Assembly (NCBI RefSeq): GCF_006937785.1
Contig: NZ_SJEE01000011.1
Span: forward strand, 62,001-126,000
Direction: 5' to 3'
DNA: 64,000 bases
DNA from: Pseudanabaena sp. UWO311
Lineage (GTDB): Bacteria > Cyanobacteriota > Cyanobacteriia > Pseudanabaenales > Pseudanabaenaceae
Positions 458 through 13,015 of the stretch are shown piece after piece; within the stretch, counting starts at the first letter, position 1; every line of letters begins with the position of its first letter. The notes under the pieces are model-generated. The model saw only the letters and a list, made by a program, of their open reading frames with translations. It made no database searches and was not told the DNA's origin. Position numbers and translations under genes: made by a program.

Positions 458-2536
458 TTAGCCAGTCTCTATCAGTTTATTGAGATAGTTTAAAATATTG
501 CGAAGTTGGAAACCTTTTGCCAATTCTATGATTTTTCCAGTAAATGTTTTTAGTCCATCATCAGACCTTTCTAAATCTTTTAAAAGCTTTTGGAGAGAAT
601 CTAAATCGCCTGCTTGTATCAGTTCTATTAACTTTAAAATGATTTGTCGAGAAGGTAGCAAAATGTTGTTGGCGATCGCTTGATCTGCTAAAGATGATTG
701 AGAAGAAGCTTCGGAATCGGCAAAATAGCAGTACTCCCACTCTAAGTTCAAATTTGCTTGAATTATGTCCATTAATGGCTGCATGGTGATGGGTTTCACT
801 AGAATATCAGCGCAACCAGCTTCTATACATTTCTGGCGATCGCTTTCAATGATATCTTCCAATATCATAATTATAACAACGTTCTTCAGCTTAGAATTCT
901 GACGGATTTTACGCAGAATATTCCAATTATCATCATCTAAATTTTTTAATCCGAGTAAAAGCAAATCAGGAATATACGCGGATGTTTTATCAAAACTATC
1001 AAGTCCACCTTCAGCTTCGATGATGTCAAAATCTAAAGGTGTAAGCATATCTATCAATACATTACGGTCTAATTGTTCTGAATCCGCTACGACGATTTTA
1101 AGCTTTTCGCCTTTATAACCAATGATTTCAAGATTCAGTTGGATCTGCTCAGTCGTTTTTGTATTTATGTAAGTAGGCAAATCAATTTCGATCCAGAAAG
1201 TACTACCTTGCCCTACGGTACTTGCTACATTTAGCTCCCCTCCCATCAACTCGATTAGGCGCTTGCTAATCGGTAAACCCAAGCCAGTTCCTGATTGCAT
1301 TTTGATGGGATCACCAACTTGTTCAAAGGATTGGAATATTTTGGGCAAATCCTCTGGCGCGATCCCCACACCACTATCGATGACATCAAAACGAATTTTG
1401 CCATCAACTAGACTCTGCACTGTCAGAGTTACAGTCCCCTTGTCTGTAAACTTGATGGCATTACCTACAAGATTAAACAACACTTGGCGCAAACGCTTAG
1501 CATCACCATAAACAAGCTTAGGAATTTGTCCAATTATCTTATAAATAACTTCAATACCTTGACTGCTTGCCTGAACCTGAAATATGTCGATTAGACTATT
1601 GAGAAGTTCATCTAAGTGGAACATATCACGATCAATCTCTAATCTACCTGCCTCAATTTTGGATAGATCGAGAATGTCATTAATTAATGTAAGTAAATGC
1701 TGACCACTTCGCAGGATAACATTTAGCCCATCTTGATGTTTAACGGGGTCATCGCTCAGTTTTAGAAGTTGAGCATAGCCTAGAATTCCATTAAGAGGGG
1801 TTCTCAGTTCATGACTCATATTAGTCAAAAACTGACTTTTTGCTTTATTTGCGCTATCAGCAGCTTCTTTAGCAATTTCGAGTTCAATAGTGCGCTCTTG
1901 GACTCGCTTTTCTAAATTCTGATTAAATTGATAGAGCTTTTTGTTTAAGATAGCCATCTTTTGACGGCCTTCGGCAAGATTTACGATACTGCTGTATGCT
2001 CTGAGACTAGAAATTAGGGTCGTAAATAATTTCTGCTCGGTCAGCTCAGTTTTTGACTTATAGTCATTGATGTCATAGTTCAAAATCACCGAAGATTCAG
2101 GGAAATAACCTGGCTGACCTGTGCGGAGGATAATCCGAACCAGTTGATTTTGCAGAACTTCACGGATATGTTTGACAGCTTGTAATCCTGCGTCATTGGT
2201 TTCCATAATCACATCTTGCAGGATCACCGCAATGTCAGGATTTTGCTCAATCGTTTTAATTCCTTCAGCACCCGAAAAAGCAGAGATGATTTTCAATTCT
2301 TTGCCTGCAAACTTAAATTCCTCTAGAGCAAGCTTGGTAACTTTATGCACGGAGGGATCGTCATCACAGATCAAAATTTGCCATGTTGATCTGCTTAGTA
2401 ATGAGGTAAATTCAAATATTTCTTGAGATTCTTTATTGTAATCTTCTAGACTAGAGAAATTCTTTTTCTCATTGTCCAAAAAAGACCTATCCTCATCCTC
2501 TTCTATAAAAATCAGCTCATCTGAATCTAAAGGCAT
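458..2536 (-). CDS. Hybrid histidine kinase, REC-HisKA-HATPase-pseudoREC
   Basis: A cytoplasmic 692-residue two-component kinase with no membrane segment. Domains in order: receiver (about 52-175) with acidic pocket ICDDD and phospho-Asp D108; coiled coil (190-235); HisKA with H242 in [18 protein letters not shown]; HATPase with N359, DSGVGI near 387 and GTGLGLP near 417; then a second receiver-like domain (about 480-598). In that last domain the phospho-acceptor position is glycine (PDLLLLGL, G529) and one pocket acid is alanine (VVADS), although K581 remains. It is therefore probably a pseudo-receiver used for binding rather than phosphotransfer. A short alpha-helical tail follows, possibly HPT-like but without a clear histidine motif. 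It lies downstream of the DUF928-CHAT-haemagglutinin genes on the same strand, separated by a hairpin. Confidence 0.9.
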
Positions 2537-2621: not shown

Positions 2622-3371
2622 TTAGTTTGTAAGAGGAGTATTTGCTATGGACTCTAAGCTGGTGGACTTGAGTAAATTTAGCCAACTAGTCATAAGTTCG
2701 GGACTATTGGGTTGAGAAATACGCAAACTTGCAAGACCTGCGATCGCTTCATGCCAAATCCCAAATTTTGCGTACAAAGATACTCGTTCGAGCTCGGTCG
2801 CTTTCTCTAATTTGCTTAGTAAAGTTGTGTCTGGTTTGATGCGACGGATAATGCCTTCGGCAAATATATCTTCAGGATCACCAGTTTCACATATGACGGA
2901 GATTAGCCATTTGTAATCTTTCCCAACTTCTAAGGGAGTGCCCTCGAATTGAACATTGATGATGCTAGGAGTGCTAGTTAGAGTGATAGTCTTTTGGGCG
3001 ATGCCTTTACCTTGCTGATTTTCAAGGGTGAACTCTACGGCGATCGCAGATGTTTTGGGAATATATGCCAAAAATGTTGGACTAGCCGAGACTGTAAGTC
3101 CAAATTTGTTTTGAGGGAGTAAGGGTGTCAGTTGCTGCTCTAAAGATTTTTTGATTTTGTCCTCTCTAGGCTGAATATCACGATTTTTCAGACATTGTCC
3201 ATCATTGGTACGCCTTCCCCCGCCAATAGTTGTTGTTGGTGCAGGGTTACTTGCCGACGGTTCAAATGTTTGGGCGCGAGCATCTGATGAAAAAACAAAA
3301 AAAGTGGTGATCTCCCAGATTGTTGCGATCGAGATAAGGACAAAGTATCGATAGAAGTATTTAGAAAGCAT
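2622..3371 (-). CDS. DUF928 family secreted protein
   Basis: I choose the ATG at 3371 (249 residues) because AAGG lies about 5 nt upstream and the signal sequence begins there; a TTG at 3410 would add 13 residues. An N-terminal hydrophobic segment ends in SSDARAQTF, a likely signal-peptidase site. The body contains the DUF928 pattern: a beta-rich region with LTVSASPTFLAYIP, FEGTPLEVGKDYKWL and a cysteine in SVICETGDP, then a helical tail with YAKFGIWHEAI. DUF928 proteins are known mainly from cyanobacteria, often near CHAT, haemagglutinin and CHASE2 genes as here. Their biochemical role is unknown. It is separated from the upstream CHAT gene by a terminator-like hairpin. Confidence 0.8.
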   Translation of the reverse strand: MLSKYFYRYFVLISIATIWEITTFFVFSSDARAQTFEPSASNPAPTTTIGGGRRTNDGQCLKNRDIQPREDKIKKSLEQQLTPLLPQNKFGLTVSASPTFLAYIPKTSAIAVEFTLENQQGKGIAQKTITLTSTPSIINVQFEGTPLEVGKDYKWLISVICETGDPEDIFAEGIIRRIKPDTTLLSKLEKATELERVSLYAKFGIWHEAIAGLASLRISQPNSPELMTSWLNLLKSTSLESIANTPLTN

Positions 3372-3529
3372 AGCCTTATACCTAGAGAAGCAATAACTGA
3401 ATAAATGCAAATTTTTCTAGTGGTCTAAATTAGCAGCAATGTCATGAAAATGCTTAATTAATATTAAGTAATATATTACTCGGTTTTTTCACGAATGGTT
3501 AATTATCGCTTGTAAAATCTAGAAAACTT

Positions 3530-3570
3530 CATAAAAAGAAGATGGTGCAAAGCGCTATCTTCTTTTTATG
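3530..3570 (-). terminator. Terminator hairpin after CHAT gene
   Basis: Arms CATAAAAAGAAGAT and ATCTTCTTTTTATG enclose a GC core GGTGC-AAA-GCGCT. It lies immediately after the CHAT stop codon, and the A-rich arm gives a U-run on the minus-strand transcript, as expected for an intrinsic terminator. Confidence 0.75.
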
Positions 3571-3571
3571 A

Positions 3572-6160
3572 TTACAACCAATTTCCGATTAAAACAAATG
3601 GAGCCCAATAGAAGGGGTGGGTATACTGTGGGTTTTTCAGAAGACTGAGCTGGGCTTTCTGTAAAGCATTAGCTTTACCTGTGCCGAGAGTCGCTAGTTC
3701 TTGATAAAAGTTTTTCATAAACGTTGCGGTGGCACTATCTTCTACTGACCACAAGCTTGCGATCGTGCTACGTGCTCCCGATCGCACAGCCATTCCTGCT
3801 AGTCCTAAAGTAGCTCGATTATCTCCCTTAGCAGTTTTGCATGCACTAAGCACCAATAGCTCAATGGGAATGCGGCTATCTTGCTCTCTAGATTGCAATA
3901 ATTCTCCTAACTGTTTGACTCCAAGTCGATTATTCCACGTTAAAACAAACGTTTTTTCAGCATCAGAGCTAAATTCACCGTGAGTAGCTAGATGCACTAC
4001 TCTATAGGGGATTTTCCTAATTTGTTTTTGAATAGATTCGCTAATAAAATCTTCATTTAGTAATAGGGTTTGAGCTGACACAAGGGAAGCAATTTGCTGA
4101 ACCTCTCTTTCGACATTTGGTAAAGCATTAAAATTTTGAGTTTCCTTACTCACTCCCCCGACAAATACAGTTAGTTGTTGGCGTTTGAGTGGGCGAGGAT
4201 CGATGAGTTGTAACCCAGGTGTGATAGCTAGATTATATTTTTCCATCAAATACTTTTGCCCATCATAAAGGACTGACATGGGCAGGTTTCTTAGAGAACC
4301 ATCAAGAACAAAGACTAAGGTTTTAATTTTGTTCGCAGCTAAAATAGATTCTGTCTCTTTCCCTATTAATATGTTGTAAATTTTTGCGGACACTGCTTTA
4401 ATATCAGTCTCAAGGGATGTTCGACGTAGCGATCGCCTTAATTCGCTCAAGAGACTTTCGAGATTGTTCTCAGAAATTTTGGTGGTGCTGTGTAGTAACG
4501 AACGATTTGGTAGTGAAATAATAACTTCTAGACTATCTGGCAAAACGATTGGGTAGATGACGGCAGCTTGTGGATCAACTTCATCAACTTGTGTAGTCAT
4601 CCCTGTAAGGCAAGCTTCTTTAAAAAAGTTGTCTAATTCGGCAAGTTGTAAAGATTCAATTATTTTACGAGCGGCTTTGAGATTTTCTTGACTAACTGGC
4701 TTTCCATCTTCAGGAGTAAGAAGTAAGGCGACAAGCTGACGGTAAACTGGTTCGACACTATCACGGAAAGAAAACTGAATGTCTTCATTACTAGATACAA
4801 GGTCGCCACGGATCGAAGTTAGCGTGTTGACAGATTCTGTATAAGCGATGATCGCCTTAGGATTGTTACCTTGAGATTTGAGTATTCGTCCGAGTTGCCA
4901 TTGCCAGCGATAGGCTATATCTGAAGCATTATTGGTTTGAGACACAAGGAGCGCTTTCTCAGTTAGGATTTGAGCTTCTGAGAACTGTTGATTTTGTTCA
5001 TAGAGATAGCCTAGATATCCGATCGCATAGGATTCGGCTCTAATGTCACCCATCTCATGGGCTTGTTGGGTAGCTGTTGCAAGGAGTTTAGCAGGGGCTT
5101 GGCGATCGCTTGTGGGATTTAGTTTAATTAGACTTTGCGCAAAGTTCACTCTTGCGTAGACTGAGGCTCGGCTGGGCGGGAGGTTCAGCAGCTGGGTTTG
5201 AATATCATCTAGCAATAATCTGGCTGCTTCAGGCTGATTCAGTTTAATCTGGAGACGTAGTTGATTTAATTGGGCTTGGACTTTTTGGCTGGGAAAGATT
5301 GCGGTATTAGCAGCTTGCTGATAATAGCTGATCGCTTCGGTAGGTTGTTGTGAGCTATAGGCGGTATTTCCTAAACTTAATAGAATATCTGCCATGATCG
5401 AAGAGTCATTTAGCTTTTTTGCGATCGCCAGACTCTCTTGCAATACCAGTTTGGAACCTTGGATATCTCCACACAATCGTAGGGTTTCACCGAGATTGAG
5501 CAAAATTGCTGCCTTAAGAGAGGAGTCGGGGTGTTCTTTGAGTTCTACTTGGGCTTGATCGAGGGTCTCTTTAGCTTTGGGATATAGAGCTAGCGATCGC
5601 ATAGCTTGACTCTGGTTAATCTTGCTACGAATAGCTCCATCTTTATCTCCTGCCTGCTGGTAGGTGATGGTGGCTCTTTGCCAAATTGCTAATGCGTCTT
5701 GAGCCTTGCCCTGTGCGAGTTGAATATTGCCCTGAATATTGAGAGCCTGAGCTAGTAATTTAGGTTGCTGTGAATCAGATTGGAGGATTTCTATACTGAG
5801 GACGATCTCCTGCTCTGCTTGCTTCCATTGTCCGAGTTGTTGATGTGCTAAGGCAAGATTTTGCAAAACAATGGCGTGATTGAGTCGATCGCCTTGTTTT
5901 ATACAAATATCAGCAGCTTGTTGCCAAATTGCGATCGCTTTTGCATATTGTCCTAATCGGTAATATTGCTTGCCATTCTGTACAAGAGTTGTCAGGCTAT
6001 CAGTATTAGGTATTTGACTGAGCGTTATATCGCTGTTTTTTTTTGAGGAGATATTGGCAATACTAGGCTGAACACTCCACCCTAAAAGGATAGTTAATAT
6101 AGTTATGCAAATTCCTATACCGATTAGTTTGTAGGTTTTCCGCCGAGAAGCAATGCTCAT
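3572..6160 (-). CDS. TPR-CHAT domain protein (caspase-like fold)
   Basis: Starting at the ATG at 6160 gives 862 residues and avoids overlapping the upstream haemagglutinin, which ends at 6177; a start at 6232 would overlap it by 56 bp. A hydrophobic segment near the N-terminus (KLIGIGICITILTILLGW) suggests a membrane anchor or signal peptide. Then come about ten TPR-type helical repeats (roughly 55-450) and a C-terminal CHAT domain (roughly 535-862). The CHAT His-Cys dyad is intact: ATHGEF (His 727) and LSACKTAKGDNR (Cys 774), followed by GLAGMAVRSGARSTIASLW. CHAT proteins are clan CD peptidase relatives. Here it is the second gene after a TpsA-like exoprotein, so proteolytic processing of that partner is possible but only inferred. 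Confidence 0.88.
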   Translation of the reverse strand: MSIASRRKTYKLIGIGICITILTILLGWSVQPSIANISSKKNSDITLSQIPNTDSLTTLVQNGKQYYRLGQYAKAIAIWQQAADICIKQGDRLNHAIVLQNLALAHQQLGQWKQAEQEIVLSIEILQSDSQQPKLLAQALNIQGNIQLAQGKAQDALAIWQRATITYQQAGDKDGAIRSKINQSQAMRSLALYPKAKETLDQAQVELKEHPDSSLKAAILLNLGETLRLCGDIQGSKLVLQESLAIAKKLNDSSIMADILLSLGNTAYSSQQPTEAISYYQQAANTAIFPSQKVQAQLNQLRLQIKLNQPEAARLLLDDIQTQLLNLPPSRASVYARVNFAQSLIKLNPTSDRQAPAKLLATATQQAHEMGDIRAESYAIGYLGYLYEQNQQFSEAQILTEKALLVSQTNNASDIAYRWQWQLGRILKSQGNNPKAIIAYTESVNTLTSIRGDLVSSNEDIQFSFRDSVEPVYRQLVALLLTPEDGKPVSQENLKAARKIIESLQLAELDNFFKEACLTGMTTQVDEVDPQAAVIYPIVLPDSLEVIISLPNRSLLHSTTKISENNLESLLSELRRSLRRTSLETDIKAVSAKIYNILIGKETESILAANKIKTLVFVLDGSLRNLPMSVLYDGQKYLMEKYNLAITPGLQLIDPRPLKRQQLTVFVGGVSKETQNFNALPNVEREVQQIASLVSAQTLLLNEDFISESIQKQIRKIPYRVVHLATHGEFSSDAEKTFVLTWNNRLGVKQLGELLQSREQDSRIPIELLVLSACKTAKGDNRATLGLAGMAVRSGARSTIASLWSVEDSATATFMKNFYQELATLGTGKANALQKAQLSLLKNPQYTHPFYWAPFVLIGNWL

Positions 6161-6176
6161 ATTTAGACTATTAAAT

Positions 6177-9100
6177 TTATTTTGAACAAGAAAGCTGAGG
6201 GATGGCAGGACTAAGAGGAGTAGAATCAACAACTAATCGCAATCTGCCATAACTATCATGTGCGATCGCATTAGCCTCGACAATAAATTTTGGAGATTCA
6301 TTCTTTACTTCTTGTTTTTGTTCAGTTGCCGAGATTTGATTTGTGTTGCTTGGTACGAGTTCAGCTAGGTCTACTAGAGATTGATTAATGGAAAGCTCAT
6401 CACTAGGACTCTTTGGTAAGCCCCCTCTACCTGCGATCGTAAAGCGATTCTCTCGATTAGAGAACTTCCCCTGCATGGCACAGCTCTGACTAACCTGTTT
6501 CGATGAATCAACAAGATTGAGCGGCAAAGAAGTTAATCCTCGACTTGGATCAATTTCAGGTGTTGTAACTGTTACATTTCCTTGCACCCCAAACTGAGAA
6601 CTAGCGGCAATGTCACTAAAATCTGTTAATTGTGGGCGGAACTCTAGTCCATAGATACCATTAGTCTTAATATCAACATTTCCTCCATTACCCGTAAACG
6701 CATTGGCAAAGATATTGCTGTTTTCGCCTTTCACTCCAACGATAAAACCCGCATTTATTTTAACGTTTCCTCCATTACCTCCAGCGTTTGAAGTACCTGC
6801 GGTAGTGCTAATATTGCTTCCATAACGCAAAAGTAAAATAGCTGGAACAGTTAAATCTATATTACCTCCATTAGTACTAGCTGTTGATGCGGTGATGGAG
6901 GAACCATTCAAAAGAGAGAGGTAATTGGCAAATACAGTAATGTTGCCACCAATGCCAGAGCCTAGACTGCCGACAGCGATTGTCGCTCCATCTTGCAGGG
7001 TCACATACTGCGGATCGATCGTAATATTGCCGCCATCTCCTGTCGAGCCTAATGTGGTATTGGCAAATAAGCCAGTACCCGCAGTAAAGAGAATTGAGTT
7101 TCCCGCAATGAGTCCGATGTTTCCAGCTTTCCCTTTGTTACTAGTTTGCGCAATAATTTGACTATTATCTTTGAAGGTAATGCTCTTTCCTGCGGTAACG
7201 GTGATACTGCCAGCATTACCGATACTACTAGTATTACTAAGGACTTGACTATTATTTTGGAAGGTGATCGCCGCAGGGCTAGTGATCAGAATATTTCCAG
7301 CAGGGGCAATTCCTTGAGTCGTACTCACGATCAGGATATTGTCAAAGATGAGATTACCTAATCCTTTAATAATTACGCCTCCTGATCGCCCACTTTGTCC
7401 AGAACCAAAAATTGTAGTGATGAAAGTGTTGGGATCGTTGATGTCATAGGCTCGTTTAGGGAACTTTACGGTCTTACTCGTAATCACTTGAAGAGATGCG
7501 ATCGCTAAATCACCTAGACCATTAATATTCACTGCTCCTGCTGCTCCAAAGGCAGATGAGGTAAAGAGCGCAAGATTGCTGATTTGATTTTTTGCTGTTA
7601 AATTAACGTCACCCCCATTACCACTTTTTGATGTTGGTGCAGAAATAGAGAATGATAATATATAGCTCGTTAATGCACTGGTAATACTTCCATTGGGCGC
7701 GTTTATAGATACAGATCCGCCATTCTGAGAACTTGCAGATGATGCTAAAGAGTATGCTGATAATGTCGAATTATTTAGTGAAATATTTCCATTGCCAGAG
7801 TAAATTGTAATTGCTCCCCCATTTCGAGAATTAGCGGATCTTGCGAATGAATAGGAATACAATGTCAAATCGTTCAGAATAATGTTGCCCAATGAGGTAG
7901 CTAGAGATATATTTCCTCCATTTCCAGAATGATTTAATTTTGAGGATGAGTAAGAAGCCGTAGATGAGTTCAATGGGGCATTAATTAATGAAATGTTCCC
8001 AGAATAGGAAGCCAAAGAAAATGCTCCTCCATTACCAGAGGAACCAGAACCTGAGTATGTACCAGCATCTAAATAAGTACCAACATCTCCAAAGAAACTT
8101 CTAACATCTTTAACCGTAATATTGCCAGAATAAGTAGCAAAAGCAATGTCTCCAGCATTTCCCGAATTGCCTGATGCCAAGGAAACAGAAGGCGATTTCC
8201 AAATTGGACGAGTAACCGTAATATTACCTGAGTAGGAAACAAGAGATACCGCGCCTGCATTGGCGGAATTACCAGAGTAAGAAAATGAAGAGGACTCAAA
8301 GTATAGTTCGTCTAATATGATGTTACCTAAATAAGAAAAGAATGAAATATTACCGCCATTCCCAGTATTGCCAGAGAATGTAAAGGAATCAGTGTATAGC
8401 TCTGAATTCATCGTAATATTACCAGCATAGGAAGAAATTGTGACTGATCCACCATTTCCTGCATTGCCAGAACCTGGCTCTGAATATGCAATTAAGTTGG
8501 AATTTATAGCAATATCGCCTCGACTATAAATTCGAACATCTCCAGCATTAGCTCCGACTATACCAGTCCCAGTATTAATTTCTTGAGTGGAAATTTTGCC
8601 TTGTAAAGTATTGGGAACAAATTGATTAGTTAAGAACACTAACCCACTAGGTTGACTCACGCGAATATTCCCATTCACAGTAATATCAGATCTAGTAGGA
8701 GGGTTTGCATAGGAAGGAACAGACGCGATCGCACCTAAAACGATAGGACTAGCAGGCAACCCCCCCAATTTTGACCAATCCACTCCTGCTCTTATATCCA
8801 AAGTTGCCTTAGTACTTCCATCAATCGTAATAGGAGTTTGAACTGGGACAATATCTTGAACTGAGCCATTGCTATCTTTGATCGCTTGATAGTCAGTCAA
8901 GTTAAATGTTGCTAAGTCTGCATAACGCTTAGTGGCATTAAATAATGTTGTATTACTGGGATTAATCGTAGAGTTAATAGCCCCAGTATTATTTATAATG
9001 ACATTCGCCATAGTCACACTACCGCCAGCTAAGATATGCAGTGATGCCCCAGTGTAGTTACCTAACGCCACATTGCCATTTGCCAGAATTACTGGATCAT

Positions 9101-9989
9101 TAGGACTGAGCAAATCACCGATAGTTCCATTTAACTTCTCAATATTTAAGTTTCCACCAGCATAGAAATGAGCGTCGCCAACAACAGGATTTTGCGATCG
9201 CAGCACCATATTCCCACCCGACCAAAAACCACTATTAGGGTGATTTAAGGTAAAAATATCAACCGATTGATTTCCTTGTACTAGTATGTCTCTACCAGAT
9301 GCTGCCACAAATTTTGTGTTAGCAGTATCGCGAATCGTTACCGTATCCTGAGCCTGCAAGATCAGATCTCGACCTGCCTGTAATTGACCCTGCAAGTCCA
9401 ATTTGTCAGCATTTAAAACTAAATCTTGTTTCGTTGAGAGATTAGCCTGATTGGCTATCGCAGCACCATTATTACTAGTTCCATACTGCAATCCTGTTGT
9501 AATATTCATTGTTAGCAATGGTGGTGCTTGAGGATTCGTGGCACTAAACTCGCTACCATCGGAGAATTTAAAGCTATTTGCTGTACTACCAACAAATGTT
9601 CCGCCAATATCTAACTTCGCATTTGCGCCAAAGACGATTCCATTGGGATTGAGCAAAAATAAATTTGCATTGCCATTCGCTTTCAATATCCCGTCAATAT
9701 TTGAAACGGAGCCGCCTGTCACTCGCGTCAACACATTCTGAATGTTCGGTGCATTATTAAAATAGGCAGTATTATTTGTCGAAACTGAGAAATCTCGAAA
9801 ACTATGATAGAGGTTAACTCCTCTAATCGTGCCCCCATCAATAGTTTGGATTAGTCCGTTAGTTGTTACTGTAGAGTTATTAGGTAAGGTATTATCTGGG
9901 AGAATCTGCGCCATAGCTGAAAATGCTGTTGTGAAGAAGCTAAAAGCAAATCCACATGTCAATTTGATATAGCGAAGAGCAAGTTTCAT
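6177..9989 (-). CDS. Filamentous-haemagglutinin (TpsA-like) exoprotein
   Basis: 1270 residues. ATG start with GAGGA about 9 nt upstream. The signal peptide ends near FSAMAQ. A TPS secretion domain follows (about 28-160) with the diagnostic NLFLLNPNGIVFGANAKLD. The rest is Gly/Asn/Ser-rich and predicted to be a right-handed beta helix. A block of roughly 35-40-residue repeats with the theme SGNGG..SLASYSGNI lies at about residues 508-795. The C-terminus carries the cyanobacterial signature RFTIAGRGGLPKSP, preceded by a Cys (SQSCAMQGKF), with a second Cys at the end (LSCSK). TpsA proteins are exported through a TpsB (FhaC/ShlB) outer-membrane partner; none is encoded in this window. It is followed 16 bp later by the CHAT gene, so the two are likely co-transcribed. 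Confidence 0.9.
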   Translation of the reverse strand: MKLALRYIKLTCGFAFSFFTTAFSAMAQILPDNTLPNNSTVTTNGLIQTIDGGTIRGVNLYHSFRDFSVSTNNTAYFNNAPNIQNVLTRVTGGSVSNIDGILKANGNANLFLLNPNGIVFGANAKLDIGGTFVGSTANSFKFSDGSEFSATNPQAPPLLTMNITTGLQYGTSNNGAAIANQANLSTKQDLVLNADKLDLQGQLQAGRDLILQAQDTVTIRDTANTKFVAASGRDILVQGNQSVDIFTLNHPNSGFWSGGNMVLRSQNPVVGDAHFYAGGNLNIEKLNGTIGDLLSPNDPVILANGNVALGNYTGASLHILAGGSVTMANVIINNTGAINSTINPSNTTLFNATKRYADLATFNLTDYQAIKDSNGSVQDIVPVQTPITIDGSTKATLDIRAGVDWSKLGGLPASPIVLGAIASVPSYANPPTRSDITVNGNIRVSQPSGLVFLTNQFVPNTLQGKISTQEINTGTGIVGANAGDVRIYSRGDIAINSNLIAYSEPGSGNAGNGGSVTISSYAGNITMNSELYTDSFTFSGNTGNGGNISFFSYLGNIILDELYFESSSFSYSGNSANAGAVSLVSYSGNITVTRPIWKSPSVSLASGNSGNAGDIAFATYSGNITVKDVRSFFGDVGTYLDAGTYSGSGSSGNGGAFSLASYSGNISLINAPLNSSTASYSSSKLNHSGNGGNISLATSLGNIILNDLTLYSYSFARSANSRNGGAITIYSGNGNISLNNSTLSAYSLASSASSQNGGSVSINAPNGSITSALTSYILSFSISAPTSKSGNGGDVNLTAKNQISNLALFTSSAFGAAGAVNINGLGDLAIASLQVITSKTVKFPKRAYDINDPNTFITTIFGSGQSGRSGGVIIKGLGNLIFDNILIVSTTQGIAPAGNILITSPAAITFQNNSQVLSNTSSIGNAGSITVTAGKSITFKDNSQIIAQTSNKGKAGNIGLIAGNSILFTAGTGLFANTTLGSTGDGGNITIDPQYVTLQDGATIAVGSLGSGIGGNITVFANYLSLLNGSSITASTASTNGGNIDLTVPAILLLRYGSNISTTAGTSNAGGNGGNVKINAGFIVGVKGENSNIFANAFTGNGGNVDIKTNGIYGLEFRPQLTDFSDIAASSQFGVQGNVTVTTPEIDPSRGLTSLPLNLVDSSKQVSQSCAMQGKFSNRENRFTIAGRGGLPKSPSDELSINQSLVDLAELVPSNTNQISATEQKQEVKNESPKFIVEANAIAHDSYGRLRLVVDSTPLSPAIPQLSCSK
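7603..8466 (-). repeat. Coding tandem repeats in the haemagglutinin
   Basis: About seven or eight degenerate units of roughly 105-120 bp encode the pattern NGG-(S/A)-hydrophobic-SYSGNI followed by a Ser/Tyr-rich stretch. The units are imperfect, so recombination-driven copy-number change may be slower than in perfect repeats. They are probably coils of the beta-helix stalk. Confidence 0.6.
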
Positions 9990-10591
9990 GTTTTAAGTTC
10001 CTCTTATAATACCGATCCTCGAAAGTGTGACTACATTGTCAAAACAATACTTTTTAAGATATTTCACCTTCAAAGTAGCATTGTTGTTTTAAAGATTTCG
10101 ACTACAGTAATTTCAGGCTAGAAGACCATTATAAATTCTTAGAAATACGATGCAACAATGCTTAATAGAACTTCTTGGATAAGACTAGATTGGGAATTAC
10201 TATACAACAGATATTAATATAATCTTTAGTAAGATAATTAACATTGGGGTATTCATTATACCTAAATAATACCAATGAGTAGTAGAAACAACTGGTGAAT
10301 CTTTAGTAATCAAATATATTCAAATTCAAATTTTGCAAGGCTATAGAATTTGTGTTTTTTGATAATTGATGCTTTTGCTCTAGAATTTATACTTAAATCC
10401 TAAAAGATACGCTATTTTTTTAGTATAAACTCTTAAGATGTTTCTTATTTAATTTACACAAATTGCTGCTGCTTTTCTATTATTGCGAAATTAATCTGGG
10501 GAACTAGCGATCGCAGCTGAGCTAACGATTAATGGCTATATCGATAGAGTAATCCCCATTGCTCCTCACTCTTGACTGTTAGAATTTACAG
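9990..10591. other. AT-rich divergent intergenic region
   Basis: 602 bp between the divergently transcribed haemagglutinin and CHASE2-kinase genes. It is strongly AT-rich, with one HIP1 site near 10508 and a GAGGA motif before the haemagglutinin start. No small ORF, RNA gene or palindrome stands out. Promoters for both directions must lie here, but I cannot place them with confidence. Confidence 0.4.
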
Positions 10592-13015
10592 ATGTGGATT
10601 AACTTCAAAAAGATAATTTGGAAATTGCGTGGGGTTTTGGTTGTTGTCCCAGCAACAACAGGTATTTTGCTTGGACTGCGCTTTGTGGGAGTTTTGCAAC
10701 CAATAGAACTTGCTGTATATGATTTGTTCTTTCAATGGCGACCGTCAGAAGCCAAAGACGAACGCATCGTGATTGTCGCAATTAATGAACCAGACATCCA
10801 GAAGTTTGGTTCACCTATCTCTGACGAAACCCTTGCCAAGCTCTTAAATTTAATTCAACAACAACAACCCAGAGTAGTCGGGCTAGATATCTATCGAGAT
10901 CTCCCAGTACCCAAGCAATATGGAGATGCATATCGACAGTTAGTAAACACGTTTGAATCAATGCCAAATCTAATTGGCATCCGCAAAGTTATCGCAAATC
11001 AAGGCGGTAGTGATGTGGATGGCTCCCCCATCCTAGAAAAGCTTAATCAAGTAGCTGCAAATGATTTGCTTCCTGATGGTGACGGCAAGATTCGCCGCAT
11101 CTTACTTTCTCTAAAGGACAAACAGGGTAAAACTATCACTAGTTTGAGTGCTGCTTTAGCCATCAAGTACCTCAAACAAGAGAATATTAGCATCGAAGTT
11201 GTTAATTCTAAAACACAGCAATATAGGTTGGGAAAAGCAATATTTGCTCCAATCACCGAAAATGTTGGAGGCTATGTAAGCCAAGATCTGGGGGGATATC
11301 AAATACTTTCAAATTTCCGTAATTTTCAAAATGGTTTTCATACAGTTTCTTTAACTGATGTACTCAATAAAAATATTGCTCAGGATACATTTCGCGATCG
11401 CCTTGTTCTAATTGGAATTACCGCAGAAAGCAATACAGATTATTTTATTACTCCATATAACAGCACAACATTAGGTAGTCCTTTCCCAGTCACAAGCGGC
11501 GTTATTCTTCATGCAAATATTGCCAGCCAATTAATCGCTAACGCCCTTGATGGACGACCCACCATACAAGTTTGGTCTAAATTAATCGAATCTTTGTGGA
11601 TTGTGCTCTGGGGAGGTATTGGTGGTTTATTATGTCGCAGTAGGCGCTACAAAAGAATACTGACCTCATCAAAATTTCCATTGCATATGCATTGGAATAT
11701 TCTGACGATTTTGGGATTAGGAGGAGGGCTACTTACGGTTAGCTACATCGCATTTTTGTGGGGTTGGTGGATGCCTATAGTTCCTACTTTATTAGCACTA
11801 TTTTGTTCAGCGATCGCGGTTACAAGCTATACGACTCTCAGCGCTGGGGAAACTCGCAGAAGAGCGATTCTTTCTGTTATTCCTGATTTAATGTTTCATG
11901 TTAGTGCAGATGGTATCTATCTTGGTCAGGTTAACTATGAAAACGAAATCGAGTTACTTTATCCTGACTTTGAGAATATTGGTAAGCATGTGTCCCAAAT
12001 CCTTCCAACCGAAATTAGCGATCGCCAGCTTTTCTATATAAATCAAGCTATCGTCACAAGGGAAATGCAAATTTATGAGCAGCAAATATGTGTAAATGGC
12101 TACTGCCAAGATGAGGAGGTTCGCATAGTAGTGAGCGGAGCCAACGAAGTGCTATTTATGATTCGCAATATTAGCGATCGCAAACGAGCAGAGGCTGCAA
12201 TTTATCAAAAGAATATCGAATTAGCCAGCACCTTAGATGAACTTAAAACCACCCAAAAGCAACTGTTAGAGTCCGAAAAATATGCTGCTCTCGGTAGTAT
12301 GGTGGCAGGTATCGCCCATGAGGTGAATACTCCTGTTGGCAATAGTTTAATGGCAGCTTCCATTCTTGATAATGCGACAAATAGATTTAGGGAATCTTTT
12401 GAGATTGGGGAACTTAAAAAATCTAGCTTGCAAGCATATTTAGAGAAAACTAAAAGCAGCAGCGAAATTCTATTGACTAACTTACAGCGGGCTGCCGAGC
12501 TCATCCAAAACTTTAAGCAAGTTGCCGTTGATCAAACCAGTCTAGAGCAGCGCAGTTTTGAAGTGAAAGACTATATCGAGAAGATTCTGCTTAGTCTAGC
12601 CCCGCAAATTCAAAATACTTCACATCAAATTAAAGTCCTTGGTGATAATGCGATCTCTATACGAAGTTACCCTGGAGCCTTATCTCAAATCATCACAAAT
12701 TTAGTGGTAAATTCTCTTGCTCATGCCTATCACAACTTAGATAAAGCTGGACAATTACAAGTTGAAATTTCTCAGCAAGATGACAAAGTTCTCATTACTT
12801 ACTCTGATGATGGTAATGGTATTCCATCTGAAAGTCTAGACAAAATTTTTGAACCTTTTTTCACAACAGCTAGAGATAGAGGTGGTAGTGGTCTTGGGCT
12901 ACATATTATCTATAACCTTGTGACACAAAATTTGAAAGGAACAATTCTTTGTGAAAGCACAGTGGGTGTTGGCACAAAATTTTCGATTATCTTACCACTC
13001 AACATAGAGCTATAA
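10592..13015 (+). CDS. CHASE2 sensor histidine kinase
   Basis: 807 residues. A short N-terminal membrane segment (13-36) is followed by an extracytoplasmic CHASE2 domain (about 40-320, with AVYDLFFQWRP, VGLDIYRDLP and the DRLVLIGITA region). Membrane segments follow at about 333-350, 368-388 and 390-412, typical of CHASE2 proteins. Then come a PAS-like region (about 423-530), a coiled coil, HisKA with H576 in GIAHEVNTPVGNSLM, and HATPase with N706 and GGSGLGLHIIYNL. The natural ligand of CHASE2 is unknown. No obvious Shine-Dalgarno precedes the ATG. It faces the haemagglutinin-CHAT-DUF928 genes; co-occurrence of these families in cyanobacteria suggests that it senses or controls that surface system. 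No adjacent stand-alone response regulator is present. Confidence 0.9.
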   Translation: MWINFKKIIWKLRGVLVVVPATTGILLGLRFVGVLQPIELAVYDLFFQWRPSEAKDERIVIVAINEPDIQKFGSPISDETLAKLLNLIQQQQPRVVGLDIYRDLPVPKQYGDAYRQLVNTFESMPNLIGIRKVIANQGGSDVDGSPILEKLNQVAANDLLPDGDGKIRRILLSLKDKQGKTITSLSAALAIKYLKQENISIEVVNSKTQQYRLGKAIFAPITENVGGYVSQDLGGYQILSNFRNFQNGFHTVSLTDVLNKNIAQDTFRDRLVLIGITAESNTDYFITPYNSTTLGSPFPVTSGVILHANIASQLIANALDGRPTIQVWSKLIESLWIVLWGGIGGLLCRSRRYKRILTSSKFPLHMHWNILTILGLGGGLLTVSYIAFLWGWWMPIVPTLLALFCSAIAVTSYTTLSAGETRRRAILSVIPDLMFHVSADGIYLGQVNYENEIELLYPDFENIGKHVSQILPTEISDRQLFYINQAIVTREMQIYEQQICVNGYCQDEEVRIVVSGANEVLFMIRNISDRKRAEAAIYQKNIELASTLDELKTTQKQLLESEKYAALGSMVAGIAHEVNTPVGNSLMAASILDNATNRFRESFEIGELKKSSLQAYLEKTKSSSEILLTNLQRAAELIQNFKQVAVDQTSLEQRSFEVKDYIEKILLSLAPQIQNTSHQIKVLGDNAISIRSYPGALSQIITNLVVNSLAHAYHNLDKAGQLQVEISQQDDKVLITYSDDGNGIPSESLDKIFEPFFTTARDRGGSGLGLHIIYNLVTQNLKGTILCESTVGVGTKFSIILPLNIEL

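Follow-up and report, generated by a model that had tools for sequence, protein, structure and literature searches.

The window analysed here is a 64,000-nt stretch of the Pseudanabaena sp. UWO311 genome (NZ_SJEE01000011.1, 62,001-126,000 of the forward strand), to which all coordinates refer. Inspection of its open reading frames together with Pfam searches bore out the four families that a sequence-only reading had named, namely a TpsA-like exoprotein, a TPR-CHAT protein, a secreted DUF928 protein and a divergent CHASE2 kinase (Table 1), as well as the 16-bp spacing between the TpsA stop codon and the likely CHAT ATG at 6160. The module reaches beyond the start it had been given: a REC-HisKA-HATPase-REC kinase adds to its DUF928 side and holds the same place in Pseudanabaena sp. 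lw0831. The direct neighbours of the TPR-CHAT gene are those for TpsA and DUF928. The N-terminal TPS secretion domain of TpsA was confirmed with PF05860 and NCBIfam TIGR01901, and the signal peptide preceding it was read by eye. The CHASE2 kinase matched HATPase_c at E 9e-24, with HisKA below its cut-off (20.8 of 26.9 bits).

Table 1. Positions of the genes, domains and sites within the 64,000-nt window
Feature	Position	Strand	Remarks
REC-HisKA-HATPase-REC kinase	458..2536	-	85 bp after DUF928, same strand
DUF928 protein, secreted	2622..3410	-	PF06051 E 4e-53; likely ATG about 3371, signal ...DARA↓Q
TPR-CHAT protein from likely ATG	3572..6160	-	CHAT (PF12770) E 2e-61 + TPR
TPR-CHAT ORF as listed	3572-6232	-	likely ATG at 6160
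CHAT domain	about 3581-4396	-	positions by hand
Catalytic residues of CHAT	His about 3980-3982, Cys about 3839-3841	-	positions by hand
Sec-type signal peptide of TPR-CHAT	about 6056-6160	-	positions by hand
TpsA-like exoprotein, 1270 aa	6177..9989	-	signal peptide + TPS domain, PF05860 E 9e-50
Cys-bracketed C-terminal tail of TpsA	6186..6482	-	positions by hand from ORF residue numbers
TPS domain of TpsA	about 9183-9911	-	PF05860, residues 27-269
Intergenic region tpsA / CHASE2 kinase	9990..10591	.	divergent; no TpsB remnant found
CHASE2 sensor histidine kinase	10592..13015	+	CHASE2 E 7e-64, domain about 10661-11629; divergent from tpsA

The absence of a TpsB pore gene from the locus, also remarked upon in that reading, was confirmed: PF03865 had no match on the contig, the surroundings of the TpsA-CHASE2 gap yielded no TpsB remnant, and PF03865 found nothing in the 20.9 kb lw0831 locus. 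The proposed search for the genome's TpsB genes located seven elsewhere. TpsA proteins of a sister cluster (C27), with 69-80 % TPS-domain identity to the window TpsA, adjoin a TpsB, which is the best candidate pore for the window TpsA.

Neighbourhood conservation

The neighbourhood statistics suggested in the earlier reading place linkage of the families well above chance in the own genome, in eight genomes and in 80 CHAT-centred loci. Across the 8 closed or near-closed genomes (1 to 10 contigs each), the proximity of TPS to CHAT, CHAT to DUF928, DUF928 to CHASE2 and TPS to DUF928 was matched by 0 of 1000 circular shifts; this test dropped matches off the main contig, CHAT matches below 150 bits and second pieces of one frame, kept CHAT domains in a CHASE2 frame apart and used a rounded length for one genome (G014). 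TpsB-DUF928 linkage was weaker than that of the other pairs, with 3 and 4 of 1000 shifts as high. Within the best 80 of at least 574 confirmed CHAT loci, the 51 of at least 17 kb held TPS in 42, DUF928 in 40 and CHASE2 in 39; this sample shares two loci with the first sample of loci (L216 = L058, L191 = L126). A DUF928-centred sample was obtained from 121 non-own matches, reduced to 107 by removal of copies within 10 kb and to 96 by omission of the sister genomes G045 and G066, from which 80 were taken at random (19 genomes); here CHASE2 lay nearby in 52, CHAT in 39 and TPS in 24, and 18 of the 80 loci had none of the three. The description of the locus as one module is thus upheld in part, in that linkage recurs in two samples centred on different families. 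A single joint system of all four is weakened, because DUF928-CHASE2 pairs often occur without TpsA or CHAT and because of those 18 loci.

The tpsA and CHAT genes are linked with a marked polarity. Adjacent same-strand pairs in the order TpsA-then-CHAT numbered 20 and 34 in the two samples (median gap 21 and 53.5 bp) and the reverse order 2 and 1, giving totals of 54 versus 3. The two domains also occur in single polypeptides, found in 6 of 9 genomes and accounting for 7 of their 56 TPS frames. Ten fused ORFs were collected among 70 TpsA, a proportion that is not a rate since some loci were fetched for holding fusions. In these fusions CHAT occupies the position of the TpsA Cys tail described below; all ten keep the catalytic dyad, none has a Pfam TPR at E<=0.001, and three have no Cys beyond residue 35 other than the catalytic one. 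In many cyanobacteria, then, an adhesin gene lies beside, or is fused to, one for a caspase-like protein, close to genes for a putative periplasmic protein and its sensor, an arrangement that may reflect dedicated cutting or monitoring of surface adhesins.

The CHAT protein

The His-Cys dyad noted previously in the window CHAT protein is intact (HLATHG and LSAC). Both residues are invariant in a 20-row alignment, and the dyad is kept in 100 of 100 CHAT frames (99 distinct) from TPS-holding loci, where His was scored by pattern in 99, Cys in 97, and the remaining four by eye. The protein had been described as membrane-anchored; this is doubtful because its N-terminus resembles a Sec signal ending in a small-x-Ala site (QPSIA↓N), although a segment further on is hydrophobic enough to be taken for a transmembrane helix. 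A simple hydrophobicity rule, used in place of SignalP, identified such a signal site in 101 of 126 unfused CHAT proteins, and in 25 of the 126, one of them the window protein, also a later helix-like stretch. The signal site points to a probable periplasmic location.

Among solved structures, sequence searches with the window CHAT protein returned TPR proteins only. A model of its last 310 residues (pLDDT 87.7) matched Csx29 (Z 21.3), separase (Z 19.9) and gingipain RgpB (Z 17.6), with identities over the aligned part of 16 % to Csx29 and 14 % to separase. The nine cyanobacterial genomes searched contain between 7 and 38 CHAT domains each. In a midpoint-rooted tree, one group of 59 (98/95) takes in all 10 fused CHATs and 33 of the 34 TPS-adjacent ones, together with 12 located beside DUF928 or CHASE2 and 4 with none of these near. 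Outside this group lie 14 CHATs without nearby TPS, 13 of them from the own genome. The CHASE2-fused CHAT type showed no linkage to TPS (1/41; 201 of 1000 shifts as high).

The C-terminal tail of TpsA

The window TpsA has only two Cys after residue 35, Cys1170 and Cys1268 (-101 and -3), which bracket a tail containing GRGGLP at residues 1187-1192. Such a two-Cys tail was found in 49 of 60 unfused complete TpsA in the first sample, with three atypical C27-tandem ORFs scored as misses (two run past the tail and one is a short fragment), and in 55 of 61 TpsA in the second, drawn from the best 80 of at least 574 CHAT loci; one TpsA is common to both. The tails carry GxGG..P and EAQGW-like motifs. 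We infer that the tail may form a disulfide-closed anchor tethering the adhesin. It occurs also in TpsA without CHAT nearby, and therefore does not by itself imply CHAT; as an exception of another kind, the C15 TpsA has a linked CHAT, which lies outside the main tree group, and is devoid of the long Cys tail.

An Arg or Lys in the GxGG motif is associated with CHAT linkage (63:5 versus 12:7, Fisher p 0.003), as counted on 113 rows after removal of 18 whose nearby CHAT was placed otherwise and of 8 that had no scorable motif, using a motif pattern widened after a first scoring. With relatedness controlled, the association was not significant (5 and 4 independent pairs, median p 1), and several CHAT-linked TpsA have Ser (L116), Gln (L075, L207, L213) or His (L218) at this position, or no motif (L030, L067). 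For these reasons we rejected GRGG as a proven cut site; G(R/K)GG may be regarded as a tentative candidate.

DUF928 and its linked kinases

The DUF928 protein combines a beta-sandwich with C-terminal helices, its Cys73 being invariant and Cys174 nearly so. No solved relatives were found by sequence at E<=1. The nearest fold was the MtxA C-terminal domain (Z 9.6, rmsd 4.3, 151 aligned), followed by carbohydrate-binding, fibronectin and other sandwiches near Z 6-7, matches too weak to name a function; the open-licence literature searched held almost nothing on the family. DUF928-CHASE2 pairs are commoner than TpsA or CHAT near DUF928, are frequent without either and carry many kinds of output, and relatives of the REC-HisKA-HATPase-REC kinase found beside DUF928 elsewhere are CHASE2 kinases. 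DUF928-CHASE2 is a separable sensory pair. The proposal that CHASE2 senses the outcome of adhesin processing is weaker for this independence and variety of outputs.

Discussion

The earlier reading as a whole is partly supported. Its central suggestion, an adhesin processed by the CHAT protein, gains as a prediction from the fusions, the dyad kept throughout the TPS-holding loci, the polarity of the tandem genes and the protease fold match. We favor, at a probability of about 0.5, a two-partner-secretion adhesin module with its own exported separase/Csx29-like CHAT protease that processes or releases TpsA. Sec would carry TpsA across the inner membrane and a TpsB encoded elsewhere across the outer one, its Cys tail remaining periplasmic as a disulfide-closed plug that keeps the adhesin on the cell. 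The TPR-CHAT protein would likewise reach the periplasm. There the TPR arm may recognise either TpsA or TpsB, and the Cys-His site, caspase-like in kind, may cut TpsA near the tail, leading to maturation or release; in the cis versions, CHAT is fused in place of the tail and lacks the TPR arm. DUF928 might act as a periplasmic partner of CHASE2 that couples envelope state to cytoplasmic kinases or cyclases. A more specific version appears doubtful to us. In it, CHAT would be a separase-like counterpart of the LapG release switch, cutting C-terminal to the Arg or Lys of G(R/K)GG within the Cys-closed plug; in the cis versions the protease domain would itself form the plug, and tension on the adhesin or its export would control a caspase-like enzyme fixed in the pore.

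Two other roles for the CHAT protein deserve weighing. Instead of being a regulated release protease, it may be a periplasmic quality-control or secretion aid, a TPR chaperone that degrades jammed TpsA. The TPR arm would suit this role, as would genes that lie in tandem or overlap with tpsA and at some loci also with tpsB (8 TpsB-CHAT pairs are adjacent); the fusions, however, put CHAT without TPR in the tail's place, which suggests a stoichiometric role at the C-terminus, and we consider this role rather unlikely. Alternatively, TpsA may be an exposed receptor and CHAT an alarm protease that acts on other substrates upon disturbance by phage or contact, much as Csx29 does in CRISPR immunity. 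That Csx29 of Craspase is the nearest CHAT fold, that a phage-resistant Nostoc 7120 substrain is mutated in a protein with an FHA N-terminal domain (PMC10811720), and that 11 of 54 CHASE2 proteins scanned carry CHAT in the same frame all accord with such a guard, but an exported CHAT could not reach cytoplasmic suicide targets, and the six proteins scanned against a defence library matched a TPR model and nothing else; we regard it as distinctly unlikely.

Co-location without joint function, by which expanded envelope and signalling families simply gather in islands, draws on the fact that all of these families are expanded paralogs with many unlinked copies (27 CHAT, 13 TPS, 10 DUF928 and 11 CHASE2 in the own genome). 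It is already disfavored, and to our mind very improbable, given the circular-shift result for the main pairs, the polarity of the gene order across gaps a few tens of bases long, the in-frame TpsA-CHAT fusions and the concentration of linkage in one part of the CHAT tree.

A fixed adhesin-protease pair that also exists as natural fusions points to a likely class of substrates for this CHAT type and can be put to a simple test. If the favored cleavage reading is true, cyanobacteria would possess a caspase-family switch for surface adhesins from a different protease family than LapG, which could matter for aggregation, for mats and for exposure to phage.

No description of a joint TpsA-CHAT-DUF928-CHASE2 module was found in the open-licence papers searched, and its parts recall several known systems. 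The two-Cys tail of unfused TpsA resembles the C-terminal anchor of HMW1 and HxuA (Haemophilus influenzae, type Vb), described for HMW1 as a disulfide anchor in the periplasm and expected to be the same for HxuA (PMC5422565); the available text of that source mentions no CHAT partner for them, whereas TpsA here has GxGG..P and EAQGW-like tail motifs. In Pseudomonas aeruginosa, the TpsA protein CdrA, presumably retained through a Cys hook at its C-terminus, is cut near that end by the periplasmic cysteine protease LapG under c-di-GMP control (PMC4694147, PMC11898600, PMC5422565). The CdrA-CdrB/LapG-LapD system thus shares with the present one a TpsA adhesin, a C-terminal Cys feature and, as proposed here, cutting near the C-terminus by a periplasmic cysteine protease. 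LapG is a Peptidase_C93, whereas the putative protease here is a CHAT protein whose gene lies beside that of TpsA and is sometimes fused to it; Peptidase_C93 (PF06035) was found in 0 of 9 genomes, the Caulobacter positive control being matched. HetF, an Anabaena CHAT protein reported to cleave PatU3 (PMC12288457), provides a cyanobacterial family member with reported protease activity (PMC12288457, PMC8406250), but differs in its substrate and its divisome and heterocyst role, with TpsA absent from the available text of these sources. Craspase Csx29 shares with the window protein both the TPR and CHAT pairing and the CHAT fold, and separase the CHAT fold, while the window CHAT is set apart from both by its export signal and its linkage to TpsA.

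Organization of the window locus

The sequence-only reading had grouped a TpsA exoprotein, a TPR-CHAT protein, a DUF928 protein and a CHASE2 kinase as one surface-signalling module. We confirmed all four genes at the positions assigned to them, as well as the 16-bp spacing between the tpsA stop codon and TPR-CHAT when counted from the likely start of the latter. An additional kinase gene follows DUF928. It holds the same position in Pseudanabaena sp. lw0831. Among the fetched open reading frames, several of the closest relatives of this kinase are CHASE2 kinases adjoining DUF928. Among the matches listed, the nearest named locus is that of lw0831 (CHAT identity 91%), which keeps the window gene order and the extra kinase. 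A 230-residue open reading frame that the window lacks (lw0831 locus L162, 7594-8286, + strand) separates tpsA and CHAT there. No gene for the outer-membrane pore TpsB occurs across the 20.9 kb of the lw0831 locus either, and the missing TpsB of the window is therefore not an assembly accident.

Genes of the window locus, with positions in the window
Gene	Position	Strand	Basis	Remark
tpsA	6177-9989	-	ORF and family check	
TPR-CHAT	3572-6160	-	ORF and family check	6160 is the likely ATG
DUF928	2622-3410	-	ORF and family check	
REC-HisKA-HATPase-REC kinase	458-2536	-		85 bp past DUF928; omitted from the sequence-only reading
CHASE2 histidine kinase	10592-13015	+	ORF and family check	divergent

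Linkage of the four families

Linkage was assessed in eight closed or near-closed genomes of the phylum sample, at a distance of 10 kb and against 1000 circular shifts. DUF928 lay near CHASE2 in 22 of 31 cases (shift mean 0.9), near CHAT in 15 of 31 (1.4) and near the TPS secretion domain in 12 of 31 (0.6), while TPS lay near CHAT in 21 of 41 (1.5), five of these being fusions; for all four pairs none of the 1000 shifts equalled or exceeded the observed value, so that the families are linked beyond chance. DUF928 was present in 24 of the 79 phylum-sample genomes, all within the 31 of the same class. A first sample, 80 stretches centred on DUF928 and taken from 19 other genomes, held CHASE2 in 52, CHAT in 39, TPS in 24 and TpsB in 11, and 18 stretches had none of CHASE2, CHAT and TPS. 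The second sample, the best 80 of at least 574 confirmed named loci encoding the closest CHAT relatives, shares two loci with the first. Because it was ranked by likeness to the window CHAT, its counts (TPS in 53, DUF928 in 53 and CHASE2 in 51; among the 51 loci of at least 17 kb, 42, 40 and 39, respectively, with all four families in 29) inform on that CHAT type and not on CHAT overall. Adjacent same-strand pairs with TpsA preceding CHAT numbered 20 and 34 in the two samples (median gaps 21 and 53.5 bp), and those in the reverse order 2 and 1.

A family profile search of the UWO311 genome itself (5.2 Mb, 61 contigs) returned 27 CHAT, 13 TPS, 10 DUF928, 11 CHASE2 and 7 TpsB matches. Each of the seven TpsB genes, which had been proposed as a target for searching, has a TpsA no more than 12 kb away. 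All five families occur on contig C15 and on C47; C35 carries CHAT, TpsA and TpsB, and C6 carries CHAT, DUF928 and CHASE2. On C27, a sister cluster places CHASE2 and TpsB on the strand opposite to that of five TPS matches, CHAT and DUF928. Since the TPS domains on C27 are 69 to 80% identical to the window copy, we infer that the C27 TpsB would be the leading candidate for the pore that exports the window TpsA. A tandem of five TPS copies, then a single CHAT and DUF928, spans fetched loci L028 (7213-20000) and L029 (1-11638, both + strand), with extended C-termini in two copies and one copy apparently interrupted. Thirteen CHAT paralogs of the UWO311 genome (on C47, C27, C11, C59, C60, C56, C16, C33, C61 and C37) form an expansion within one tree group and, by coordinates, have no TPS match within 10 kb.

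TpsA-CHAT fusions and the CHAT tree

CHAT is also encoded within 7 of the 56 TPS frames above the family cut-off in the UWO311 genome and eight others (two in UWO311; one apiece in genomes G002, G011, G014, G027 and G068). We examined ten fused frames, three of them from further genomes: by Pfam, CHAT forms the extreme C-terminus in all ten, TPR is found in none, and the TPS domain is found in nine, the tenth TPS coming from a separate search. In a midpoint-rooted tree of 80 sequences the fused CHATs cluster with a few short stand-alone CHATs beside the TPR-CHAT group, and together they make up a supported group of 59 (98/95), comprising 33 that adjoin TPS, 10 fused, 12 beside DUF928/CHASE2 and 4 with none near. 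Separate from this group stand 14 CHATs without TPS near, 13 from the UWO311 genome; the C15 CHAT is the sole TPS-adjacent CHAT outside it.

Several frames depart from the common pattern. At L149 (4084-9410, + strand) the TPS frame ends in an odd repeat and is followed 60 bp on by a 456-residue CHAT of the fused group, which looks like a split fusion. A glycosyltransferase-2 stretch, identified by Pfam at L068 (4128-9596, + strand) and merely similar-looking at L153 (5351-9508, - strand), precedes TPS in two fused frames whose true start may be internal. L050 (1-4404, + strand) encodes TPS and TpsB (ShlB) in a single open frame of 1476 residues, an exoprotein fused to its own pore.

The TpsA tail and the putative CHAT protease

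Exactly two cysteines follow residue 35 in 43 of 60 complete unfused TpsA proteins, and 49 of 60 have one Cys in the last 12 residues and another 60 to 170 residues from the end. The second sample, in which the terminal Cys was scored over the last 13 residues and which has one TpsA in common with the first, gave 45 of 61 and 55 of 61. The window TpsA conforms (Cys at -101 and -3). According to the TPS review PMC5422565, a disulfide-closed C-terminal domain of HMW1 remains periplasmic and keeps the protein locked into the pore, and an equivalent lock is expected for HxuA; the tail described here is likewise bracketed by two C-terminal cysteines and, by analogy, may serve as an anchor. The fusions lack this tail and have CHAT in its place. 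Between the two cysteines sits G(R/K)GG. Where CHAT lies downstream on the tpsA strand, no more than 6 kb away, the second residue of this motif is basic in 63 of 68 scored TpsA; where no CHAT is near, the count is 12 of 19 (Fisher p 0.003; of 113 rows, 18 with a differently placed CHAT in the neighbourhood and 8 with no scorable motif are excluded). The association is not significant in a tree-controlled test.

The predicted model of the CHAT domain (last 310 residues of the window protein, pLDDT 87.7) resembles Csx29 in fold (Z 21.3, rmsd 3.2 with 276 residues aligned), as well as separase (Z 19.9) and gingipain RgpB (Z 17.6). Because separase and gingipain R both cut at Arg, G(R/K)GG is tempting as a candidate cut site for CHAT. 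The PDB title of 1cvr reads Arg-specific. The catalytic His and Cys are retained in 100 of 100 CHAT frames (99 distinct) from TPS-holding loci, including four missed by the pattern in which both were found by eye. Judged by a simple hydrophobicity criterion, 125 of 126 unfused CHAT proteins have an export-like N-terminus, whether or not they are linked; 101 show an Ala-type cleavage site and 25, the window protein among them, a later membrane-like stretch.

The DUF928-CHASE2 pair

DUF928 reads as an exported protein, with two conserved cysteines and a predicted fold of a beta-sandwich, then helices. It associates with CHASE2 first and with TpsA/CHAT second, and the outputs of 54 CHASE2 proteins scanned with Pfam, 53 of which adjoin DUF928, vary (22 nucleotide cyclase, 12 kinase ATPase domain, 11 CHAT); both points are consistent with an envelope sensor of general use that the adhesin module has recruited. 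That the pair reads adhesin processing is our guess. The CHAT in those 11 frames is a different, weak one, placed N-terminal to CHASE2 by genome positions (L109, L075, L050 and others; C44:22041-23417 in the UWO311 genome). It is probably cytoplasmic and would serve as an output of the CHASE2 sensor.

Proposed role of CHAT

The four-family association is real and stronger than the sequence-only reading could know, and the literature listings searched contain no description of a joint TpsA-CHAT-DUF928-CHASE2 module. Its interpretation as adhesin processing is plausible: CHAT would act on the neighbouring TpsA as a processing or release protease, to which we assign a probability of about 0.5. 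A quality-control function of CHAT toward TpsA seems unlikely, and the guard role also raised by the sequence-only reading less probable still. With CHAT as processing or release protease, type Vb secretion would here be paired with a dedicated, sometimes built-in, putative caspase-like protease.

This proposal draws on CdrA, a TpsA presumably retained through a Cys hook and set free by LapG, a cysteine protease of the periplasm (PMC4694147 and PMC11898600), together with the absence of the LapG family from all nine genomes searched. CdrA-LapG is the nearest working parallel, joining a TpsA with a presumed Cys-type hook to a cysteine protease; the difference is that, in these LapG-free cyanobacterial genomes, the proposed protease is CHAT.
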